DNA of 43,234 bases from a virus. Shown one piece after another: positions 4,157 to 43,234 of the stretch (within the stretch, counting starts at the first letter, position 1; each line of letters starts with the position of its first letter). The notes under the pieces are model-generated. The model saw nothing but the letters and a program-made list of their open reading frames with translations, ran no database searches and was not told the DNA's origin. Position numbers and translations under genes: made by a program. The DNA is taken from positions 1 through 43,234 of IMG/VR virus record IMGVR_UViG_3300033153_007725; one strand, given 5' to 3'.

Positions 4157-4464
4157 ACGTGACCAAGCTGGGAGACGGAGTAGGACCCGAGGATAAGAAG
4201 GTAACTTTCAACGACGAGAACGGGGCCATCGTGGTCCGCGATTTCGCCACCAAGGAGCAGATCATCCTCTGCGGAACCCTGGCGGGCGCCGCGGAGCAGG
4301 GCTACAAGCTGATGGAGCCGGCCGCCGGCGCCGCGGAGGACAAGGGCGGAGATCAGAATCCCTGCGGCACCGAGGAATCCGGCGAAGGGAAGAGCGACGC
4401 CGGCCCCAGCGAGGGATCCGGGGAAGGGGCCCAGCAGGAGGAAAACACGCCCGAGGCGTCCTAA
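4144..4464 (+). CDS. Hypothetical acidic protein, 106 aa
   Basis: The gene overlaps the end of the integrase by 13 bases and is preceded by AAAGGAG. The N-terminal half (residues 1-60) looks folded, with alternating hydrophobic residues (KVTFNDENGAIVVRDF, IILCGTLAGAAEQGYKL). The C-terminal half is a low-complexity acidic tail rich in Glu, Gly, Ser and Asp, such as GEGKSDAGPSEGSGEG. No family recognised. It is the last gene before the bidirectional terminator, so it closes the rightward operon. Confidence 0.7.
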   Translation: MPTMNVTKLGDGVGPEDKKVTFNDENGAIVVRDFATKEQIILCGTLAGAAEQGYKLMEPAAGAAEDKGGDQNPCGTEESGEGKSDAGPSEGSGEGAQQEENTPEAS

Positions 4465-4488
4465 GAATCGACAGATCCACGAAAAGCA

Positions 4489-4524
4489 ACAGCCCCCGAG
4501 CTTTTGGCCCGGGGGCTGTCTTTT
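4489..4524. terminator. Bidirectional rho-independent terminator
   Basis: A 13-base stem (4489-4501 with 4507-4519, one mismatch) around a 5-base loop, followed by CTTTTG on the + strand. On the - strand the hairpin is followed by GTTGCTTTT, so it can stop transcription in both directions. It sits exactly between the converging rightward (ending 4464) and leftward (ending 4696) operons, which supports the function. Confidence 0.9.
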
Positions 4525-4591
4525 GTCCTGCTGCGCTTGGGGGCGCTGCGATCTGTCTTTTATCCTACGGCTTCAAAGCTGTCTTTTGTCC
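4516..4591. repeat. Three 13-bp direct repeats (iteron-like)
   Basis: CTGTCTTTTGTCC occurs at 4516-4528 and 4579-4591, and CTGTCTTTTATCC (one change) at 4553-4565. Spacings are 37 and 26 bases. The first copy shares its left end with the terminator. Short phased direct repeats next to DnaA boxes are typical of plasmid and phage replication origins, where an initiator binds. No initiator protein is recognisable in the window, so the role is inferred. Confidence 0.6.
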
Positions 4592-4664
4592 GTGAGGTCC
4601 CGCGCTACCGATCGGGGCCGCGGGCCAGGCCGAGCGAAAAAAGTGGCCTGCGATCCACCCCACC

Positions 4665-4694
4665 TGTGGATAACCCCTGTGGATATGTGGATAA
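4665..4694. other. Cluster of three DnaA boxes, candidate replication origin
   Basis: Reading the + strand, TGTGGATAA (4665-4673), TGTGGATAT (4678-4686) and TGTGGATAA (4686-4694). Two are perfect matches to the reverse complement of the DnaA box TTATCCACA and the third differs at its last base; all point the same way within 30 bases. Together with the iteron-like repeats just upstream and the position between convergent operons, this is a good origin candidate. The last box abuts the stop codon of the leftward gene at 4696. Confidence 0.7.
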
Positions 4695-4695
4695 C

Positions 4696-5052
4696 TCAAA
4701 GCGCGGACCTCTCCGAAAGCCGGTCCCGCCAGTCCCGGACGGCCTGCTCTACCTCCGCCCGGGACAGCTCCCGAGCCCCCGCCACAAGCTCCGCCGCCCG
4801 CTTCCGCTCCCTGCGCCGCCGCAGTATGGCCGAGCGCCCGCCAAGCAGCAGCGGCATTTGCTCCCCGGCCCGCGTCCGCTGAAAGCCGCCCCTCCGGCGA
4901 TCAACGCAGACGCAGCAGGAGCAGATCCTAGAGCGCGGCCGGTCCTGCAGCGGGAACGTGACCCGCTCCGGGACCCGGAACCGCTGGCAATGCTTCCCGC
5001 CCTTGTACGGTGACGGGCAGTAGATTATCCGAACCGTAGCCGTGCCCTCCAT
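4696..5052 (-). CDS. Hypothetical Cys-containing basic protein, 118 aa
   Basis: Last gene of the leftward operon. The N-terminal part contains a cluster of cysteines (RICSCCVCVDRRR, about residues 42-54, plus Cys at about 12 and 22) that may bind zinc. The C-terminal half is a long charged helix rich in Arg, Glu and Ala (RRRRERKRAAELVAGARELS). Overlap with the end of the upstream gene is 28 bases. No family recognised. A small DNA-binding protein encoded right beside the DnaA boxes could be a replication or partition factor, but that rests on position only. Confidence 0.6.
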   Translation of the reverse strand: MEGTATVRIIYCPSPYKGGKHCQRFRVPERVTFPLQDRPRSRICSCCVCVDRRRGGFQRTRAGEQMPLLLGGRSAILRRRRERKRAAELVAGARELSRAEVEQAVRDWRDRLSERSAL

Positions 5053-5288
5053 TCCGCGCCCGAGACGCGGACCGGGACGCCGCGCCAGTAGGCGCGCTCG
5101 ATATGGGCCAGGACGAAACGCACCCCAACGCGCTCCAGGCCCTTCAAGACGCAGGCGTCAAGCGCCCGGCGCTCTATGTCGTCCTCGTGCTGGGGCCATT
5201 CAGGCGGGCAGGCGCAGACCTGCGATCCAGTCAATGGGCCGAAGTCTGAGAGCGGACAGCCCTGCTTGTGTGTCAGCTTCGAGCTCAT
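5025..5288 (-). CDS. Hypothetical protein, 87 aa
   Basis: Start chosen at the ATG that overlaps the upstream stop (ATGA, 5285-5288); a longer frame exists but would run deep into the upstream gene. Residues 9-31 carry three cysteines (QGCPLSDFGPLTGSQVCACP), followed by a helical region (DDIERRALDACVLKGLERVG) and an Arg-rich end. Possibly a small metal-binding protein. No recognised family. Translation is probably coupled to the hairpin-led gene before it. Confidence 0.6.
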   Translation of the reverse strand: MSSKLTHKQGCPLSDFGPLTGSQVCACPPEWPQHEDDIERRALDACVLKGLERVGVRFVLAHIERAYWRGVPVRVSGAEWRARLRFG

Positions 5289-5467
5289 GCAGCCGCCACC
5301 GGCCGCCCCTGCGCGCGGTCGAAGTCCGGCCCACACATGAGCCCCCGGCCCGTCATGACCCAGCCCTGCCCCGGGTCTTTGGAGTACGACTTAACCGGCA
5401 GCCTGTGACCTATCGAGAACACGCCGCAAAGCCACGGCGCGCCGCATGATATACAATTCCTGCTCAT
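5285..5467 (-). CDS. Small Cys-containing protein behind leader hairpin, 60 aa
   Basis: The start is the ATG one base after the repeated leader hairpin (5469-5484); the frame opens 4 codons earlier inside the hairpin, but the other copies show the real start follows it. Residues 4-14 read NCISCGAPWLCG, a Cys-x-x-Cys element with a third Cys, suggesting zinc binding; another Cys follows in the GRGLMCGPDFD segment. The ATG and stop overlaps with the following gene (ATGA) indicate coupling. Function unknown. Confidence 0.65.
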   Translation of the reverse strand: MSRNCISCGAPWLCGVFSIGHRLPVKSYSKDPGQGWVMTGRGLMCGPDFDRAQGRPVAAA

Positions 5468-5576
5468 AAGCACCCCCAAGTGCTACGGATTCCCGGGCAG
5501 CTCGCCCGGACCTGGGAGCCCAGCAGGCCCCCGGGACCGGACGCCGAGAGCCCGAAGGCCCCCGGCGCCCCGCGAT
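5468..5576 (-). promoter_or_regulatory. Structured leader, copy 1
   Basis: Intergenic leader read leftward. It holds a GC-rich stem (CCGGGC / GCCCGG with a short loop) and then, directly before the start codon, AGCACTTGGGGGTGCT (5469-5484): a 5-bp stem whose 6-base loop supplies the G-rich ribosome site. The GGGCCTGCTG segment farther upstream is shared with copy 2 and, weakly, copy 3. The same arrangement recurs at 6884 and 7989, and the hairpin alone at 8252. Confidence 0.8.
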
Positions 5577-5666
5577 CTACAGCACGCCGCAGCGCTGCAG
5601 CAGCCAAGCAGCCAGCACCACGGCCGAGAGAAGCGCCCAGGCGATATTGACCGCCCGCCCCGCCAT
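5577..5666 (-). CDS. 29-aa single-pass membrane peptide
   Basis: The ATG overlaps the stop of the DUF932 gene (TAATG at 5664-5668), arguing for translational coupling. The peptide is almost entirely one hydrophobic helix (AVNIAWALLSAVVLAAWLL, about residues 5-23) with short polar ends (MAGR at the N-terminus, QRCGVL at the C-terminus). Such tiny phage membrane peptides may act in lysis or exclusion, but nothing here decides it. It is below usual gene-calling cut-offs. Confidence 0.55.
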   Translation of the reverse strand: MAGRAVNIAWALLSAVVLAAWLLQRCGVL

Positions 5667-6883
5667 TAAGCGGCCGTCCCCGCCGCGACCTTTTCCGGGA
5701 GAGGCTGCTTGAGCAGCTTTCCCGCGAGCGCTTCCATGTCCGCCCCTTCCTCCGCCCCGGGCAGGTCCTGCGCATGGCGCGCGACAGCCTGCGCCAGCCC
5801 GTAGCGGTTCGCGTCGTAATCCTTGACGAAGTACCCCAGCACCGCGTCCCGCGCTGTATCGCTCATTTGATGCGCCTTTGCGATGTTTTCCACGGCCGCC
5901 TGGGGTGCCCGGATCTCCTGGCTTTGGGCGCTCCGGCACACGTCGACGATCCGCTTGAAGACCTCCGGCTTGAAAGCCGCGTTGACAGTATCGCGCGCCT
6001 TCATGTAGATGGCCTTCGACTCCTGCGACAGCGTAGCGTCGGAGAAGATCCCGACATTGAGCCGCTCGCCCAGGTGCACCCGGCCGATAACGTCCTCGAC
6101 CGTCGCAAGGTTAAAGCAGATCGCTTGCACGATCCCGACCCGGACCCAGAACCCACCGTGCCCGGTTTCGCTGTTCCCGATGGTGATGAGAGGGTGCACC
6201 GTGCCCGGCCCGCCCGGAAGCCCGCCTTCCGAATTCGCGCCGACCTTCCCGAGATACTCCTGATTCCCGAGCCCGCCCGCGTACCAGTCCCGCTTGCTGC
6301 CCTGCGCCCGGCGGTAATCGAGCGCGTCATAGATGGCCCGGGACGTGAACTTGATCCGCATACAGGTGTCAGAGAGCGCCGCCTCTATGACCTCGCCCCC
6401 GTTCGCGCGCACCGCGTCGAGCGCCGCAAAGGCGATGTCGTAATTGTCGAGCACCCGGTAACGATCGGACAGGAACGCGCGGACATTCCCATCCAGGCAC
6501 CGGACCAGCCGCCGCGCGGGCCCGTCCTGCATAAGCCCATTCAGCAGCTCCGCCGCGCGCACCGGCCGCTTTTCAACTAGCCGCTGCATGAACTTCGACG
6601 GTATGTCTGGGTCCTGCTTCTGGCCCGCCTGGGTCAGCGCCCCGGGCTTGAGCAGCAGCCCGTTTTTGTCGATCCATTCCCCCGCGCGCGTATCCGCCGC
6701 GTGCAGGTACAGCCGGCCCGGCTGCCCAGCCGGCCCCGACTCCGGCCGAAACTCTAGGCTGCGCGTATCCGCAACGAAGTCCACCTTTGACGCCTTCTGG
6801 CGCTCGAGCTCCGCGACCAGCTTGCCGAGATTGCCCCGGCCCGACCATGCTTTGTTCCGTGCATACTCTGATTTCTGCTCCAT
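5666..6883 (-). CDS. DUF932 phage/plasmid-like protein, 405 aa
   Basis: Matches the DUF932 / phage-plasmid-like (TIGR03299-type) family by its central features: a YLH segment near residue 60, FLSDRYRVLDNYDIAFAALD (about residues 137-156), repeated beta-rich blocks around TCMRIKFTSRAI, and a TIGNSETGHGGFWVRVGIVQAICFN-type block that carries the domain signature (about residues 230-255). These proteins are common on conjugative plasmids, phages and ICEs; their molecular function is unknown. The start follows a leader hairpin (TGCACTTGGGGGTGCA) with zero spacing. The gene is the largest of the leftward operon and couples to a membrane peptide. Confidence 0.85.
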   Translation of the reverse strand: MEQKSEYARNKAWSGRGNLGKLVAELERQKASKVDFVADTRSLEFRPESGPAGQPGRLYLHAADTRAGEWIDKNGLLLKPGALTQAGQKQDPDIPSKFMQRLVEKRPVRAAELLNGLMQDGPARRLVRCLDGNVRAFLSDRYRVLDNYDIAFAALDAVRANGGEVIEAALSDTCMRIKFTSRAIYDALDYRRAQGSKRDWYAGGLGNQEYLGKVGANSEGGLPGGPGTVHPLITIGNSETGHGGFWVRVGIVQAICFNLATVEDVIGRVHLGERLNVGIFSDATLSQESKAIYMKARDTVNAAFKPEVFKRIVDVCRSAQSQEIRAPQAAVENIAKAHQMSDTARDAVLGYFVKDYDANRYGLAQAVARHAQDLPGAEEGADMEALAGKLLKQPLPEKVAAGTAA

Positions 6884-6967
6884 TGCACCCCCAAGTGCAT
6901 TTAATTTCCGGGTAAGGCCCGGACCAGGGACGACGGACCAGCAGGCCCGCCGCCCCGCGTCCGCGTC
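6884..6967 (-). promoter_or_regulatory. Structured leader, copy 2 (covarying stem)
   Basis: Second copy of the leader. The hairpin TGCACTTGGGGGTGCA (6884-6899) ends directly at the DUF932 ATG. Its outer base pair is T-A where the other copies have A-T, a compensatory change that keeps the stem intact. Upstream in the message are the CCGGG/CCCGG stem and the GGGCCTGCTGG segment also found in copy 1. Confidence 0.82.
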
Positions 6968-7162
6968 CTACTTCGGCTCCCCCCCGCCGGTTTGCAGATA
7001 GTGCGTGGCCGCTATGCCGAGCTGAACCCAGGCCGTGACCCTGAGCGCCAGCCGCCCGCCTTCCGGATCAGCGCCGAGAGTCTCGCAGATGTCGCGGAAC
7101 TCGTCGCTTTTCATGTCGGCGGGATAGAGAAGGACCTCTATGGGCTTTCCCACGCTAGGCAC
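6968..7162 (-). CDS. Hypothetical protein, 64 aa (GTG start)
   Basis: The frame extends upstream but the segment beyond 7162 lies inside the better-supported 7155-7457 gene, so a GTG overlapping that gene's stop is chosen; a second GTG at 7153 is possible. The product contains EVLLYPADMKSDEFRDICET and a C-terminal helix (WVQLGIAATHYLQTGG). No family recognised. Its stop is followed by leader copy 2. Confidence 0.55.
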   Translation of the reverse strand: MPSVGKPIEVLLYPADMKSDEFRDICETLGADPEGGRLALRVTAWVQLGIAATHYLQTGGGEPK

Positions 7163-7457
7163 CGGCTGCCCCGTACCGCTCAACCTCCGCCGCGCGCACC
7201 GCCGCGGCCCACGTCGCGCCAGTCCCCCGCGGGAAGAACTGCCCGCCGGATATGAGCCCGACCCAGCACCGGCCCGGCACCCAGTCCAGGGCAGCCGCCG
7301 CCCCGAACATCCCGCGCGCCGACTTGAGCGCCTGAGCAGGCAGCACGCCGCCTTTATGCTCCGCGCGATCCTTGAGCGCCTTGACCGGCTCCGGCCTGGA
7401 CTCCGCCACCGGGACGCTCCCGGCGAAGTGGGCAACCATATCCCCAAGGCTAGACAT
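7155..7457 (-). CDS. Hypothetical protein, 100 aa
   Basis: The ATG lies 8 bases inside the upstream gene, consistent with the operon style. Sequence is globular: an N-terminal helix (SLGDMVAHFAG), then KDRAEHKGGVLPAQALKSAR, and a GRCWVGLISGGQFFPRGTGA segment with aromatic and glycine residues. I do not recognise a family. It belongs to the DUF932 operon, so a plasmid-maintenance or anti-host role is possible but not shown. Confidence 0.6.
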   Translation of the reverse strand: MSSLGDMVAHFAGSVPVAESRPEPVKALKDRAEHKGGVLPAQALKSARGMFGAAAALDWVPGRCWVGLISGGQFFPRGTGATWAAAVRAAEVERYGAAGA

Positions 7458-7860
7458 TTGCCCCCCCGGCCTTATTGATGGCTTTCAGGCAGACCTGCTC
7501 CGCCCTATTCCCTTCCTTGAGCGCAAGCACGAGCGCCTGATAGTCGTCTGGCAGGTTGGATTCCGACAGCTTGCCGGACTCAACCAAGTCCGAAACGATA
7601 TCATGCAGCTTGCCCCAGCCATGCCGAGCAGCCCGGACGGCCCCAAGCAGGTCAGAGGCAGCCGCAGCCAAGACCTGCGCCGCAGCCTGCTTCATTGTCA
7701 GGACAGGATAGCAGAGCGCGCCACAATCCTTATCCGGGCATTGCCCGCTTGGGATGATCCCGCCCGGCTCAGTCCTGGCCCACATGGACGTCACCGGATC
7801 CAGCTTATCCTCACCCCAGTGAGCGCTGCAGCCGTCGCATTGTGTCAGCGGGTTTTTCAT
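7450..7860 (-). CDS. Hypothetical zinc-ribbon-like protein, 136 aa
   Basis: Start set at the ATG overlapping the upstream stop (ATGA, 7857-7860); nine further codons upstream are in frame but unneeded. Residues 8-50 carry CDGC and later CPDKDCGALC, a CxxC...CxxxxCxxxC pattern typical of a zinc ribbon. The C-terminal two thirds are helical (AAAQVLAAAASDLLGAVRAA, then GKLHDIVSDLVESGKL). Similar short zinc-ribbon proteins often accompany DUF932 genes on plasmids and phages. Function unknown. Confidence 0.65.
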   Translation of the reverse strand: MKNPLTQCDGCSAHWGEDKLDPVTSMWARTEPGGIIPSGQCPDKDCGALCYPVLTMKQAAAQVLAAAASDLLGAVRAARHGWGKLHDIVSDLVESGKLSESNLPDDYQALVLALKEGNRAEQVCLKAINKAGGANV

Positions 7861-7988
7861 CGGACCCGGGCCCAGACCCGCCGCCACACCACGCAGCGCC
7901 GAATCTTGTCATACGACGTATGGAAGGCGAACGCGCGCCCACCTTCCAGGCGGAGCACGCAGCGCCCGCCCCATTTTCGTATCTTCAT
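7857..7988 (-). CDS. Small basic protein behind leader hairpin, 43 aa
   Basis: A 43-codon frame too short for usual thresholds. It begins at the ATG immediately after leader hairpin copy 3 and ends in an ATGA overlap with the next gene, both strong signs of a real gene. The product is very basic with several tryptophans (MKIRKWGGRCVLRLEGGRAF, ending WRRVWARVR). It could bind nucleic acid. No recognised family. Confidence 0.6.
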   Translation of the reverse strand: MKIRKWGGRCVLRLEGGRAFAFHTSYDKIRRCVVWRRVWARVR

Positions 7989-8077
7989 AGCACCCCCAAG
8001 TGCTTGGCTTTCCCGGGAGATAGAGCTCCCGGCCCAGGGGAACGGACAGCAGCGCCCGCACCCCTGCGCCGAGCGCC
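7989..8077 (-). promoter_or_regulatory. Structured leader, copy 3
   Basis: Third copy: AGCACTTGGGGGTGCT at 7989-8004 ends at the ATG of the 43-aa gene. Upstream in the message is a CCGGGAG / CTCCCGG stem (7 bp), equivalent to the CCGGG stems of copies 1 and 2 but with different paired bases, and a GCGGGC-CTGCTG-TCCGT stretch. The stretch fills the whole gap between two genes. Confidence 0.8.
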
Positions 8078-8248
8078 CTAATTGCCGGAGCCGTCGGACA
8101 TATCGCCGGACCCGCAGCTATAGCAGGCTGCAGCGCGCCGAGTCTGTAGGGTTTCTGGATCCGTGCGCGTTCTGACGCTGAAGTAACGCATTGCGACGCA
8201 GGACCAGCACCAGCGCCACGCACGGCGAGCGGAATGGTTGCGTTTCAT
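8078..8248 (-). CDS. First gene of leftward operon, 56 aa
   Basis: A short frame that starts 3 bases after hairpin copy 4 and about 24 bases after the predicted transcription start. The N-terminus is basic and Trp-rich (MKRNHSARRAWRWCWSCVAM), the C-terminus has CYSCGSGD, so a C-x-x-C metal site may form. Supported mainly by its position behind the promoter and hairpin. No family recognised. Confidence 0.5.
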   Translation of the reverse strand: MKRNHSARRAWRWCWSCVAMRYFSVRTRTDPETLQTRRAAACYSCGSGDMSDGSGN

Positions 8249-8251
8249 ACG

Positions 8252-8267
8252 AGCACCCCCAAGTGCT
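8252..8267 (-). promoter_or_regulatory. Leader hairpin, copy 4 (promoter-proximal)
   Basis: AGCACTTGGGGGTGCT read leftward, identical to copies 1 and 3, from about +5 to +20 of the predicted transcript and 3 bases before the ATG. Here it lacks the CCGGG stem found in the three internal copies because the promoter takes its place. The loop TTGGGG with following G would be the only ribosome site. Confidence 0.8.
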
Positions 8268-8278
8268 TTGATCCACTC

Positions 8279-8306
8279 ATTATACTCAGGTTTCCCCGGA
8301 TTGCAA
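8279..8306 (-). promoter_or_regulatory. Leftward sigma70-type promoter
   Basis: Read on the - strand: TTGCAA (8306-8301), a 16-base spacer, and a perfect TATAAT (8284-8279). The predicted start is near 8272, just before the leader hairpin. It would drive the whole leftward DUF932 operon. The + strand of the same site also contains TATACT (8281-8286), but without a matching -35. Confidence 0.75.
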
Positions 8307-8562
8307 GGCCCAAAAAGTACCTAGAACAATCGCCCGGAGAGTGTCCCAACCTGGAACTGAGTCAAAGGGCCCACGCGCGCGCCGCCAGCCTTCCGGCCCG
8401 GATCTCCGCGAGCCCCCCGCCATCCCGGCCCGCAGCCAGCCCCGGCCAGAGCCCCGGAGCCCAGCCCGCAGCCCTAGCGCCCCGCCACGATCCGGCCCGC
8501 CAGCGATGCCCAGCCCCCGCGAACCCCCCGGCCCCGCTCAGCCCATCCTCAGCCCCCAGGCA
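8307..8562. other. Non-coding, strongly C-rich divergent region
   Basis: No convincing gene between the two divergent promoters. The + strand is very C-rich with few T. At about 8514-8543 the - strand shows four or more runs of G (GGGG, GGGG, GGGGGG, GGGGG) separated by 2-6 bases, a G-quadruplex pattern. An open frame runs through in the direction of the nuclease gene, but its Pro/Arg/Ala-rich translation simply reflects base composition. Confidence 0.6.
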
Positions 8563-8571
8563 TGGTATACT
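8563..8571 (+). promoter_or_regulatory. Extended -10 promoter (TGGTATACT)
   Basis: TG-N-TATACT is an extended -10 element; the expected -35 position (8543-8548, CCATCC) is poor. The 12-base string TGGTATACTCTG recurs at the promoter at 9468. The downstream gene has a GGAGG site at 8581-8585. Confidence 0.55.
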
Positions 8572-8589
8572 CTGAGCAGCGGAGGCATA

Positions 8590-8901
8590 ATGTCCAAGTT
8601 CAGAACCAAGAACAAGCACGAGATCAAGGTGAAGGCGCAGCTTGACGCCGCGGGCTGGCAGGTCCTCAAGAGAGGCTGGCCCGACTTCCTGGCCATCCGG
8701 GGAGATGAGGTCCGCCTGATCGAAGTCAAGAGCCGCGACCCGAACGCCCACCTAAAGCCCGATCAGCTCGCCATGGCTCACGCCCTGCTCAAAGCAGGCG
8801 TAACCGTTGAGCTCGCCCACGGCACCCTGGAGGACTGTTCAGACTTTAGAGACTCCCTCATTCCCAGCGGAAAGAAGGCAGGGGAACCTACGGAGGGGTA
8901 A
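8590..8901 (+). CDS. VRR-NUC domain nuclease, 103 aa
   Basis: Stand-alone VRR-NUC-type PD-(D/E)XK nuclease of typical length. Visible active-site elements: E11 (KHEIKVK), G29-x-PD32 (RGWPDFLAI) and E45-V-K47 (VRLIEVKSR), followed by KPDQLAMAHALLKAG, the usual helix after the core. Such proteins act as structure-specific nucleases, for example on Holliday junctions or flaps. The start is fixed by GGAGG at 8581 and the nearby -10; a long in-frame extension to 8341 is composition-driven. It faces away from the leftward operon. Confidence 0.9.
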   Translation: MSKFRTKNKHEIKVKAQLDAAGWQVLKRGWPDFLAIRGDEVRLIEVKSRDPNAHLKPDQLAMAHALLKAGVTVELAHGTLEDCSDFRDSLIPSGKKAGEPTEG

Positions 8902-9447
8902 GGTAGTATCTTATAGTAACGGATTGAGATGAGTGTATAGGATAGCCCTTCAGGCAGGTAGTCAGGCAGGCCAGCAGGCACCGGAGAGCAGGACGCGTCC
9001 GGGACGCAGGCAGCAGGGCAGGGACGCAGGTGGCCAGAGATGCAGGGATGGGACAGAGAGCAGCGGATAAGACCTTGACCCTGAGAGCCCGAGCCCCTGA
9101 AATAACCTGATAGCGCGCCGGATCAATACCCCGCAGGGGGGGCTGGCCGGGGGAATGTCGTAGAACGGTAGTTAGACGACACGGCGCAGCGGGCCTATCC
9201 GGCCGAGTTGGGGACAATTCGATCCCGATTAGAAAACGTGGGGCCCCCACCCCCCCTGTCCCGTGCCTCTAATCAAGTCAGGTCCAGAACTTTGTGTAGT
9301 TTTTTTCTACCCCCTCTCCACCTGATACACTTTTGCCAATCCCCACCATCCTTTTTCACATATACCCATGCCGTCCATTCGTGCCCAAGCCGTTGCCCCT
9401 GAGATCTGATACCCCTAAAAAATACCGGCGTGTGATTGCCCCCCCCC
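8902..9447. other. Non-coding stretch with repeats and hairpins
   Basis: I see no convincing gene. It contains a CAGG-rich block (8946-9035), a GGACGCGTCC palindrome (8991-9000), an inverted repeat TGTCGT / ACGACA (9156-9161 and 9176-9181), a near-palindrome GTGGGGCCCCCAC (about 9238-9250) and a T-loop hairpin GTAG-TTTTTTT-CTAC (about 9296-9310). The 3' part is pyrimidine-rich on the + strand. A - strand frame ending at 9273 has a protein-like C-terminus but no plausible start. Confidence 0.55.
8936..9077. repeat. Degenerate duplicated non-coding element, copy A
   Basis: Shares, in the same order and with similar spacing, CTTCAGGCAG (8948-8957), GGACGCAGGCAGCA (9002-9015) and AAGACCTTG (9069-9077) with copy B at 39893-40033. 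It begins near a GTATA motif in both copies. The similarity between these anchors is low, so this is an old duplication or a conserved functional site. Confidence 0.5.
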
Positions 9448-9476
9448 TTGCGCTGCGCACCCCCCGCTGGTATACT
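9448..9476 (+). promoter_or_regulatory. sigma70-type promoter
   Basis: TTGCGC (9448-9453), 17-base spacer, TATACT (9471-9476) with a TG-like GCTGG before the -10. The spacer closely resembles that of the promoter at 9607 (GCTGCGC, then a run of C, then CTGGTATA). Predicted transcription start about 9483. Confidence 0.7.
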
Positions 9477-9482
9477 CTGCGT

Positions 9483-9580
9483 GGATGCTGTGCCGTAGCG
9501 CGAATTCTCAGGACGCCGGGTTAAGTCCCGGAAATCCAGGCAAGGCGTGGCCTGCTCCGGCTTTTGCCGGTATCGTCTAA
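9483..9580 (+). ncRNA. Short structured RNA or 31-aa leader peptide
   Basis: The transcript from the 9448 promoter would fold into CCGGG-TTAAGT-CCCGG (9516-9531) and CCGGC-TTTT-GCCGG (9557-9570). There is no T-run, so it probably reads on into the gene at 9642. An ATG at 9485, two bases after the predicted start, opens a 31-codon frame ending at 9580 (MLCRSANSQDAGLS...). It could therefore be a leaderless peptide gene instead of an RNA; I cannot decide. Confidence 0.4.
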
Positions 9581-9606
9581 ATCGGCACGGCTTCCAATCC
9601 AACCCC

Positions 9607-9635
9607 TTGCGCGCGCTGCGCCCCCCTGGTATAAT
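9607..9635 (+). promoter_or_regulatory. Strong sigma70-type promoter giving a leaderless message
   Basis: TTGCGC (9607-9612), exactly 17 bases, TATAAT (9630-9635) preceded by CTGG. The ATG of the next gene is at 9642, seven bases after the -10, which is where transcription normally starts. No ribosome site can fit. Confidence 0.8.
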
Positions 9636-9641
9636 CCGGCA

Positions 9642-9899
9642 ATGAGCTTCCGCTCCGACATGAAGGCCCTTGGCGCGCTGGTTGGCGACTTCTGGGATTC
9701 GCTGAAAGAGGTCATGTACGGCTACGCGATGCTGGGCTGCCTGCGGGCGATGCTGATCTATCCCTGCGGCCCTGGCTTCAAGACCTTCGTGCGGGGCGCG
9801 ACCTGGCTTTTCGGCAAGCTGGCGGATCGGGCCGCGGCTCTCGAGGCGCGCGAGGCGCTGCTGGCCGAAGCCCGCGGTGATGAAGGCACACCCCCTTGA
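9642..9899 (+). CDS. Hypothetical protein, 85 aa (leaderless)
   Basis: The start is dictated by the promoter: the ATG coincides with the predicted +1. The protein has an amphipathic N-terminus, a central moderately hydrophobic segment (YGYAMLGCLRAMLIYPCG, about residues 26-43), and a helical, Ala/Glu-rich end (ADRAAALEAREALLAEARGD). It may associate with membranes. Family not recognised. Its 3' end overlaps the -35 of the next promoter. Confidence 0.6.
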   Translation: MSFRSDMKALGALVGDFWDSLKEVMYGYAMLGCLRAMLIYPCGPGFKTFVRGATWLFGKLADRAAALEAREALLAEARGDEGTPP

Positions 9900-39892: not shown

Positions 39893-40033
39893 TATAAAGG
39901 GCAGCTTCAGGCAGACAGAAGAGCGGACTGAAGCAAGCCGACTGAGGCCGGCGGGGATAGGGTGGACGCAGGCAGCAAGAGCGTATCTGAGGGCATATGC
40001 CCTGAGAAATGGTCGGGACATAAAAAGACCTTG
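39893..40033. repeat. Degenerate duplicated non-coding element, copy B
   Basis: Shares CTTCAGGCAG (39905-39914), GGACGCAGGCAGCA (39964-39977) and AAGACCTTG (40025-40033) in order with copy A at 8936-9077, with spacing within 7 bases of it. Copy B lies immediately before a gene whereas copy A does not. Confidence 0.5.
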
Positions 40034-40042
40034 GGGGTGTAC
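40028..40042 (+). promoter_or_regulatory. Degenerate leader motif CTTGGGGGTG before a rightward gene
   Basis: ACCTTGGGGGTGTAC precedes the ATG at 40043. Its ten-base core CTTGGGGGTG is identical to the loop and inner stem of the four leftward leader hairpins, but the outer stem is reduced to ACC/GGT. It supplies the ribosome site here too. Confidence 0.5.
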
Positions 40043-40453
40043 ATGACTCAGAAGACCTTGGCAGCATTCGTTCATAAGATCGCCTTCGATTGCCCGTCGT
40101 GCAAGCAGGCGCTCACGTTCAAGCTCGACCTATCCACCATGAAGCACGAGATCCGGGAGGTCCCGGCCTCCACGTTCGGTGAGAAGATGCGGCTGATCAC
40201 CCACTTCAAGCGCCTAAAGGGCTACGACAAGCTGCCCAACTGGGACCAGCAGTACCGCGGCCGGGCAATGAGCGCCGCCACGAAGATCCTGAAGTTCTTC
40301 GCCATGCTCGACGACAAGGTGGGGATTGCGATCGAGTGCCTAAACGACATCCACCGGATAGCGGAGAAGGACGGCTGGGACTGGACGCTGGAGACGGTTG
40401 CGAAGAGGGCGCCGGACTGGCTGATTAGGAAGCAGGGGGGGGTGCGCAAATGA
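40043..40453 (+). CDS. Hypothetical protein, 136 aa
   Basis: Start chosen after the TTGGGGG site; an in-frame extension to 39962 crosses the palindrome and duplicated element and is unlikely coding. A CPSC motif (about residues 17-20) may hold zinc with another site. The rest is helical and basic (FGEKMRLITHFKRLKGYDKL, SAATKILKFFAMLDDKVGIA). No family recognised. First gene of the rightward block that crosses the contig end. It overlaps the next gene by ATGA. Confidence 0.68.
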   Translation: MTQKTLAAFVHKIAFDCPSCKQALTFKLDLSTMKHEIREVPASTFGEKMRLITHFKRLKGYDKLPNWDQQYRGRAMSAATKILKFFAMLDDKVGIAIECLNDIHRIAEKDGWDWTLETVAKRAPDWLIRKQGGVRK

Positions 40454-42477: not shown

Positions 42478-43225
42478 ATGTACCTGTGGGATATTCAGCG
42501 GCGGGCCATGTGACGCTTGTTCGTCTAGCGGAGACGAACCCATGACTGACTACGAAGCCATGTACAACGCCGTCAGGGCCGATCTCGCGGCATCCGAGGC
42601 CGCCCGCAATCGGCTGGACGGGGAGCTAAAGGATGCAAGGATTAGGACCCTGTTGTGGGGTGAACACGCCGGGGAATCCCAGAAGGTTGCAAGGGGGATT
42701 AAGAAACAGCTCAAAGCCTCCCAGGACTATGTAAAGAAGTTGGAGGAAGAACTTTCTGAGGCCCAGATGCTTCGCGTATTGAGGCCGGATGAGAAGGAGT
42801 GTTACGAGCAAGTCTTGTCCGATCTCCGCGCCCAACTCGCATCCAAAGAGCCCGCCAAGGAGTGCCAGCGGTGCGGGGAGTTGGAGAAGATAGGCGGGCT
42901 TTTACGCGATCAAGTTATTCGCCTAGGGGAGCTTGTCGGGTGCGATACAAATTGTAGCTCTATGTTCGCCTATGACGCACCTTGTGATTGCAGAATTGGA
43001 GAATTGAAAAAGTACACTCGCCAAGCAGCAAAACTACTAGCCAAACCCCCCAACCAGAAGCCCGCCAAGTCTGAGGGGGAGATTAGGGCTGAGTGCTGGG
43101 ATGAGGCGGCAAAATTAGCCAAGGCCGAAGGTGACGAAAAGGGGTGCATGGATTGCCTATCTACGAATATTCTGGCTGATGCGTTCATGTGCAAAGCCAA
43201 GAAGCTCCGCGGGGGGAGAAAATAA
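42470..43225 (+). CDS. Cys-containing coiled-coil protein, 251 aa
   Basis: Starts eight bases inside the previous gene. N-terminal Cys cluster (CTCGIFSGGPCDACSS), an in-frame ATG after it (MTDYEAMYNAV) as an alternative start, a long coiled coil (SEAARNRLDGELKDARIRTL; KKQLKASQDYVKKLEEELSE), two further Cys clusters (CQRCGE; CDTNC, CDCR) and a basic end. Paralogous in part to the 41258 gene. Its last 105 bases are repeated at the contig start. Function unknown. Confidence 0.7.
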   Translation: MSECTCGIFSGGPCDACSSSGDEPMTDYEAMYNAVRADLAASEAARNRLDGELKDARIRTLLWGEHAGESQKVARGIKKQLKASQDYVKKLEEELSEAQMLRVLRPDEKECYEQVLSDLRAQLASKEPAKECQRCGELEKIGGLLRDQVIRLGELVGCDTNCSSMFAYDAPCDCRIGELKKYTRQAAKLLAKPPNQKPAKSEGEIRAECWDEAAKLAKAEGDEKGCMDCLSTNILADAFMCKAKKLRGGRK

Positions 43226-43234
43226 AATGAGCAA
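43121..43234. repeat. Terminal direct repeat, right copy
   Basis: Identical to bases 1-114. It contains the end of the 42470 gene and the first 8 bases (from ATG 43227) of the gene that continues at 107. The two copies together close the circle. Confidence 0.95.

Follow-up and report, generated by a model that had tools for sequence, protein, structure and literature searches.

Near-identical ribosome-site hairpins at the head of four gene blocks in a phage operon

Our study reports on a short hairpin, P2, that is repeated four times in a virus genome from IMG/VR, IMGVR_UViG_3300033153_007725 (43,234 bp, analysed in full and referred to here as the window). All four copies lie on the message of a single leftward operon, where each contains the Shine-Dalgarno (SD) sequence of the gene that follows and heads one of four blocks of overlapping open reading frames (ORFs); no P2 is found anywhere else. 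From these properties we propose, with moderate confidence, that the hairpins represent a single translation-initiation cassette in four copies, which would give all blocks the same controllable start and allow their coordinate control.

The P2 hairpin, its Shine-Dalgarno sequence and its place in the operon

The preliminary description of this DNA had noted four near-identical hairpins on the leftward message, 0-3 nt before an ATG, and all of them are present as described, with spacings of 3, 0, 0 and 1 nt. The 16-mer reads AGCACTTGGGGGTGCT in three copies and TGCACTTGGGGGTGCA in the other and forms a 5-bp stem; its outer pair is A-T in the three copies and T-A in the fourth, both sides having changed. 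The core 14-mer, GCACTTGGGGGTGC, occurs exactly four times and on the minus strand only (5470-5483, 6885-6898, 7990-8003 and 8253-8266). The copies and the elements directly upstream of them are as follows:

8279..8306, minus strand: sigma-70-like promoter TTGCAA-16-TATAAT, 10/12 matches, just before H1
8252..8267, minus strand: P2 hairpin H1, AGCACTTGGGGGTGCT, 3 nt before the ATG at 8248, heading block A
8013..8032, minus strand: hairpin P1 of H2, CCGGGAG-CTCTAT-CTCCCGG, 8 nt before P2
7989..8004, minus strand: P2 hairpin H2, AGCACTTGGGGGTGCT, 0 nt before the ATG at 7988, heading block B
6908..6922, minus strand: hairpin P1 of H3, CCGGG-CCTTA-CCCGG, 8 nt before P2
6884..6899, minus strand: P2 hairpin H3, TGCACTTGGGGGTGCA, outer pair swapped, 0 nt before the ATG at 6883, heading block C
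5493..5509, minus strand: hairpin P1 of H4, CCGGGC-GAGCT-GCCCGG, 8 nt before P2
5469..5484, minus strand: P2 hairpin H4, AGCACTTGGGGGTGCT, 1 nt before the ATG at 5467, heading block D

Matches to the core with up to three mismatches number 16 against 6.15 expected, a count that was attained in none of 100 shuffles, and five hairpins combine a loop of TTGGGG or CCCCAA with four or more Watson-Crick pairs where 0.17 would be expected. When the copies are anchored on the hairpin, their mean pairwise identity is 0.94 within the 16-mer and only 0.22-0.37 in every flank; as the flanks are unrelated while the 16-mer is kept, simple duplication was rejected as the origin of the copies. An SD enclosed by a lone hairpin before an ATG is not uncommon in itself (2.7 per 43 kb in the other loci used as a background comparison), and the weight of the argument therefore rests on the shared sequence and position of the four copies and not on the presence of a hairpin.

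The SD of P2 is GGGGGUG, the G-for-A form of AAGGAGGUG, to which it is equivalent with one G-U pair. It had been described as lying solely in the loop, and this point needs correction: GGGGGUG runs from the loop into the 3' arm. Its duplex with the anti-SD, computed with the 16S tail on the assumption of the usual anti-SD, has a free energy of -12.1 kcal/mol and is predicted to be the strongest among the phage genes examined (runner-up -11.7, median of the other genes -6.6), most of which have ordinary, unrepeated SDs. The minimum-energy fold of the isolated 16-mer is AGCACU-UGGG-GGUGCU, at -6.0 kcal/mol, which therefore splits the SD, with three or four G residues in the loop and the remainder in the 3' arm. 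Predicted opening costs, averaged across several context lengths, are 1.3-1.9 kcal/mol for the GGGG core with P2 against 2.9-4.4 without it, and 6.3-7.7 kcal/mol for the full 7-nt SD with P2 against 4.5-6.7 without it, the median for other genes being 4.2. These values fit a site that would be presented to the ribosome yet not fully open. The GCAC of the 5' arm and the U residues of the loop are invariant as well, though the SD has no need of them.

Two features extend the preliminary description, namely the fixed position of the second hairpin, P1, and the relation of P2 to exactly four overlapping blocks. P1 (CCGGG...CCCGG, with loops and inner pairs that differ) stands exactly 8 nt upstream of P2 in all three internal copies; an inverted repeat of any kind common to the copies at a common distance arose in 0 of 20,000 shuffles. 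H1 has no P1 but a promoter-like site in its place, and should therefore begin about 5 nt from the 5' end of the message, the leftward transcript being expected from the hexamer spacing to start near 8272. This site was the sole sigma-70-like match in a scan of 4400-9700, where 0.7 would be expected by chance, so that its occurrence is near chance level; the scan is in keeping with the earlier statement that three of the copies lie far from any promoter.

The operon extends from this promoter-like site (8306-8279) to a single terminator of 14 pairs (4520-4488). Its ORFs form four blocks within which neighbours overlap via ATGA, ATGTCTAG, GTGCCTAG, TAATG or longer stretches, an arrangement that suggests translational coupling inside the blocks:

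8248-8078, minus strand: block A, an ORF of 56 amino acids (aa)
7988-6968, minus strand: block B, four overlapping ORFs
6883-5577, minus strand: block C, a DUF932-like gene (6883-5666) and a 29-aa ORF ending at 5577
5467-4696, minus strand: block D, three overlapping ORFs

One P2 heads each block, and the gaps between the three internal copies and the gene upstream are about 73, 68 and 92 nt. The proteins encoded downstream of the four copies are visibly dissimilar. The DUF932-like protein of block C matches phrog_1362 and has plasmid homologues annotated as DUF932.

A model for coordinate initiation, and its alternatives

Our proposal takes from the sequence the repeats, their positions, the SD complementarity, the distance of P1 and the presence of one cassette per block; to these we add, as what we infer, folding in vivo, coupling inside the blocks and coordinate control. 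The order in the RNA would be P1 (in three blocks) or the 5' end of the message (in the first block), a linker of 8 nt after P1 or of about 5 nt after the presumed 5' end, P2 and the ATG. P1 or the 5' end would keep the upstream side of P2 free. The ribosome could then touch the exposed G residues of the loop, but would have to melt the P2 stem for full pairing with the SD, and a single factor encoded by the phage or the host may recognise the invariant P2 and set the ease with which it opens, such that the four blocks would be translated in step. The 5' arm and the outer bases are kept beyond the needs of the SD, which makes a regulator likely; Pope et al. made the same argument from the conservation of the start-associated sequences (SAS) of mycobacteriophages, which exceeds SD needs (PMC3203893).

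Several observations weigh against this model. No trans-acting factor has been identified for P2. Among the ORFs that open the four blocks, three are short, at 56, 43 and 60 aa, and carry a weak coding signal, and the coupling inside the blocks is read from ORF overlaps. Covariation in P2 amounts to the one swap of the outer pair, among only four copies without relatives, and the predicted probability of the hairpin swings from 0.02 to 1.00 with sequence context.

The main rival is a constitutive and strong ribosome-binding site (RBS) that is insulated by structure and has no regulator, an explanation that we regard as possible though doubtful. P1 and P2 would here prevent mispairing of the G-run in a GC-rich message and expose it to the ribosome, and the copies would be held identical by selection or gene conversion. 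The greater accessibility of the loop GGGG with P2 than without it is what such insulation would give, P1 or the 5' end of the message borders P2 in every copy, and no regulator is known; the full SD is nevertheless costlier to open with P2, ordinary and unrepeated SDs serve most of the other genes of the phage, and the exact agreement of the copies at all 14 core bases, those of the 5' arm among them, exceeds what insulation needs.

Two features at the 3' end of the operon bear on a different kind of control, exerted by an antisense RNA or a kissing loop:

4533..4546, minus strand: hairpin GCGC-CCCCAA-GCGC in the 3' untranslated region of the operon, with a loop that exactly complements the P2 loop; role uncertain
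4488..4520, minus strand: intrinsic terminator of the leftward operon, 14 pairs

The 3'-untranslated hairpin (4546-4533) could pair with the UUGGGG loops and block the SD, which we consider unlikely; it is similarly improbable that the operon encodes its own feedback RNA, in the form of the message itself or of a small RNA processed from its tail, and thereby adjusts translation of all four blocks together. The exact complementarity of the loops (predicted duplex -28.7 kcal/mol) and the location of the hairpin past the last gene and ahead of the terminator are consistent with such a role, and about 0 hairpins of this kind are expected on the operon strand (400 shuffles). It was, however, spotted only in hindsight and may be due to chance, with 0.17 expected across both strands of the whole window; a site in the integrase gene that is not a hairpin pairs nearly as well (-28.2 kcal/mol), and neither a promoter nor a processing site is known for an RNA of this kind.

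Control at the level of DNA, with the P2 dyad acting as a phage repressor operator or as a silencer resembling a stoperator, appears very unlikely. The 5-bp arms of the dyad and the position of H1 directly downstream of the promoter would suit a DNA site, and the stoperators of cluster A phages likewise share one orientation (PMC4351075). Against this stand the invariant, asymmetric centre TTGGGG, the three copies internal to the operon, and the location of all copies 0-3 nt from an ATG, where they supply these genes with their only good SD. The preference expressed in the preliminary description for RNA-level control over a DNA operator has thus gained support from the single orientation, the fixed position relative to the ATG and the strong internal SD, and is further favoured by the distance of three copies from the promoter and the presence of one copy per overlapping block. 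Chance, or the recent duplication of a gene cassette, is scarcely credible: single SD hairpins before ATGs do arise in background DNA at the rate given above, but here four identical 14-mers stand amid flanks of 22-37% identity and precede dissimilar proteins.

Searches for relatives and the genomic setting of the operon

No close relatives were found among the viral contigs that were scanned with the DUF932-like protein, the terminase, the capsid protein, the integrase and a block B protein, in collections that may leave out records very near this phage. The operon DNA has no match among phage and plasmid records. The exact motif followed by ATG gave two matches in IMG/VR, each within a gene, and 82 in 84,980 prokaryote genomes, where no contig had more than one and most fell within ORFs, among them a recurrent coding match in Flavobacteriaceae; neither search revealed a family. 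Looser patterns of the motif in IMG/VR yielded no contig with a repeated motif among the matches listed. Three phages related through DUF932 or the capsid protein (Roos, Jasmine and ctEqG8) have no comparable repeat family. Rfam returned 0 matches at gathering thresholds, and the interval 4400-8400 gave no match even with hits accepted up to E = 5. The identity of P2 as a tRNA or a known riboregulator was rejected.

Four IMG/VR contigs carry a single RBS hairpin, CACAC-TTGGGG-GTGTG, before a 76-aa ORF whose product is hydrophobic and, by eye, holin-like. With one copy per contig, this hairpin was judged a chance parallel and not a relative of P2. Within the window, weaker look-alikes of P2 precede two adjacent rightward genes at 40027-40050 and 40432-40452 (plus strand), as GACCTTGGGGGTGT-AC-ATG and GCAGGGGGGGGTGC-GCAA-ATG; they share the SD GGGGGTG, have three mismatches and lack a stem equal to that of P2.

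The record has a 114-bp direct repeat at its ends (1-114 and 43121-43234) and probably represents a whole genome that is circular or terminally redundant. Its genes include those for terminase, portal, scaffold, capsid, an integrase and a Cas4/RecE-like exonuclease, and proteins related to its own among phage records have less than 60% identity. A divergent gene on the plus strand (8590-8901), oriented away from the leftward operon, matches a VRR-NUC nuclease / Holliday junction resolvase. At the other end of the operon, the segment 4485-4710 contains three spaced, iteron-like direct repeats, CTGTCTTTTRTCC, and two copies of the DnaA-box-like TTATCCACA, adjoining the bidirectional terminator; judged by its sequence, the segment resembles an origin of replication, and the same phage bears an integrase.

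Comparison with known start-site elements

The MS2 coat-protein site and the sites bound by CsrA are translational operators in which a hairpin overlapping the SD can control initiation. The P2 hairpin overlaps its SD in the same way. In contrast to CsrA/RsmA sites, it has no GGA in its loop (the loop is UUGGGG, with GGGGG spread over the loop and the 3' arm), and GGA is present only upstream of P2; in contrast to the MS2 site, which includes the AUG, the AUG falls outside P2.

A closer parallel in anatomy is seen in the SAS of cluster K mycobacteriophages, which have a 13-bp consensus, GGGATAGGAGCCC, occur in 11-19 copies and are accompanied by upstream repeats, the extended start-associated sequences (ESAS) (Pope et al., 2011; PMC3203893). 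The SAS lie a few bp from start codons, ATG in most cases (PMC3203893). They have been on record since 2011, and the literature cited here establishes no function for them (PMC3203893; PMC7302621). About half of the SAS sites have an inverted repeat just upstream (PMC3203893), and the ESAS of phage Adephagia are 17-bp imperfect repeats holding SigA-like promoters (PMC11373665). Like the SAS, P2 is repeated in a single orientation with all four copies 0-3 nt from an ATG, contains the SD between complementary outer arms (of 5 bp in P2), precedes non-structural genes with a gap of more than 50 bp to the gene upstream or, at H1, follows a promoter, and is conserved beyond the requirement of the SD. 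Like the ESAS, an inverted repeat lies upstream, here CCGGG...CCCGG ending 8 nt away in three of the four copies.

The differences are equally clear. With up to two deviations allowed, GCACTTGGGGGTGC does not match GGGATAGGAGCCC, and the arms and the SD differ; the stem of P2 has 5 bp and -6.0 kcal/mol, against 3 bp and -1.9 kcal/mol for the SAS (values recomputed here from phage TM4); and P2 has four copies, all within one leftward operon, against 11-19 in phages that are unrelated to this one. The P1 repeats are 5-7 bp long and keep a fixed distance of 8 nt, and no promoter-like site accompanies the internal copies, in contrast to the ESAS of Adephagia. Because the sequence differs, the stem is stronger and the upstream hairpin is promoterless, P2 is not a member of the cluster K SAS.

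Cluster EF Microbacterium phages have a second SAS/ESAS, GGGAAAGGACCCC, which is present in ten copies and is unrelated to the cluster K SAS (PMC7302621). It too is a repeat at the position of the RBS, with complementary ends and a conserved upstream sequence, but its sequence and copy number (ten against four) differ from those of P2, and its upstream element is centred on GTAGAG where P1 is an inverted repeat of the CCGGG type. In Arthrobacter phage Kitkat we found that an RBS, GGCGAAAGGAA, recurs a few nt ahead of ATGs (for example at 8268, 10674, 14953 and 21565), and from its sequence it looks like another system of the SAS/ESAS type. The Kitkat repeat resembles P2 as a start-associated SD repeat, several copies of which have an inverted repeat directly upstream and one of which precedes a DUF932-like gene; its SD has no enclosing hairpin, and its sequence is unrelated.

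The preliminary description had found no named element with this sequence, which holds for the sequence itself, given the absence of Rfam matches, but not for the class, as the SAS/ESAS share its anatomy (PMC3203893; PMC7302621). Judged by this anatomy, P2 is an element of the same kind as the SAS, and new in sequence. Its four copies share a single operon, one to each overlapping block, its stem is stronger and its P1 is defined, which makes it a compact case in which an SAS-type function is directly testable. The comparison suggests that the pairing of a repeated RBS hairpin with an inverted repeat upstream is a solution that phages have reached more than once, with unrelated sequences, and that SAS-like anatomy is not peculiar to the actinobacterial phage clusters in which the SAS were described.

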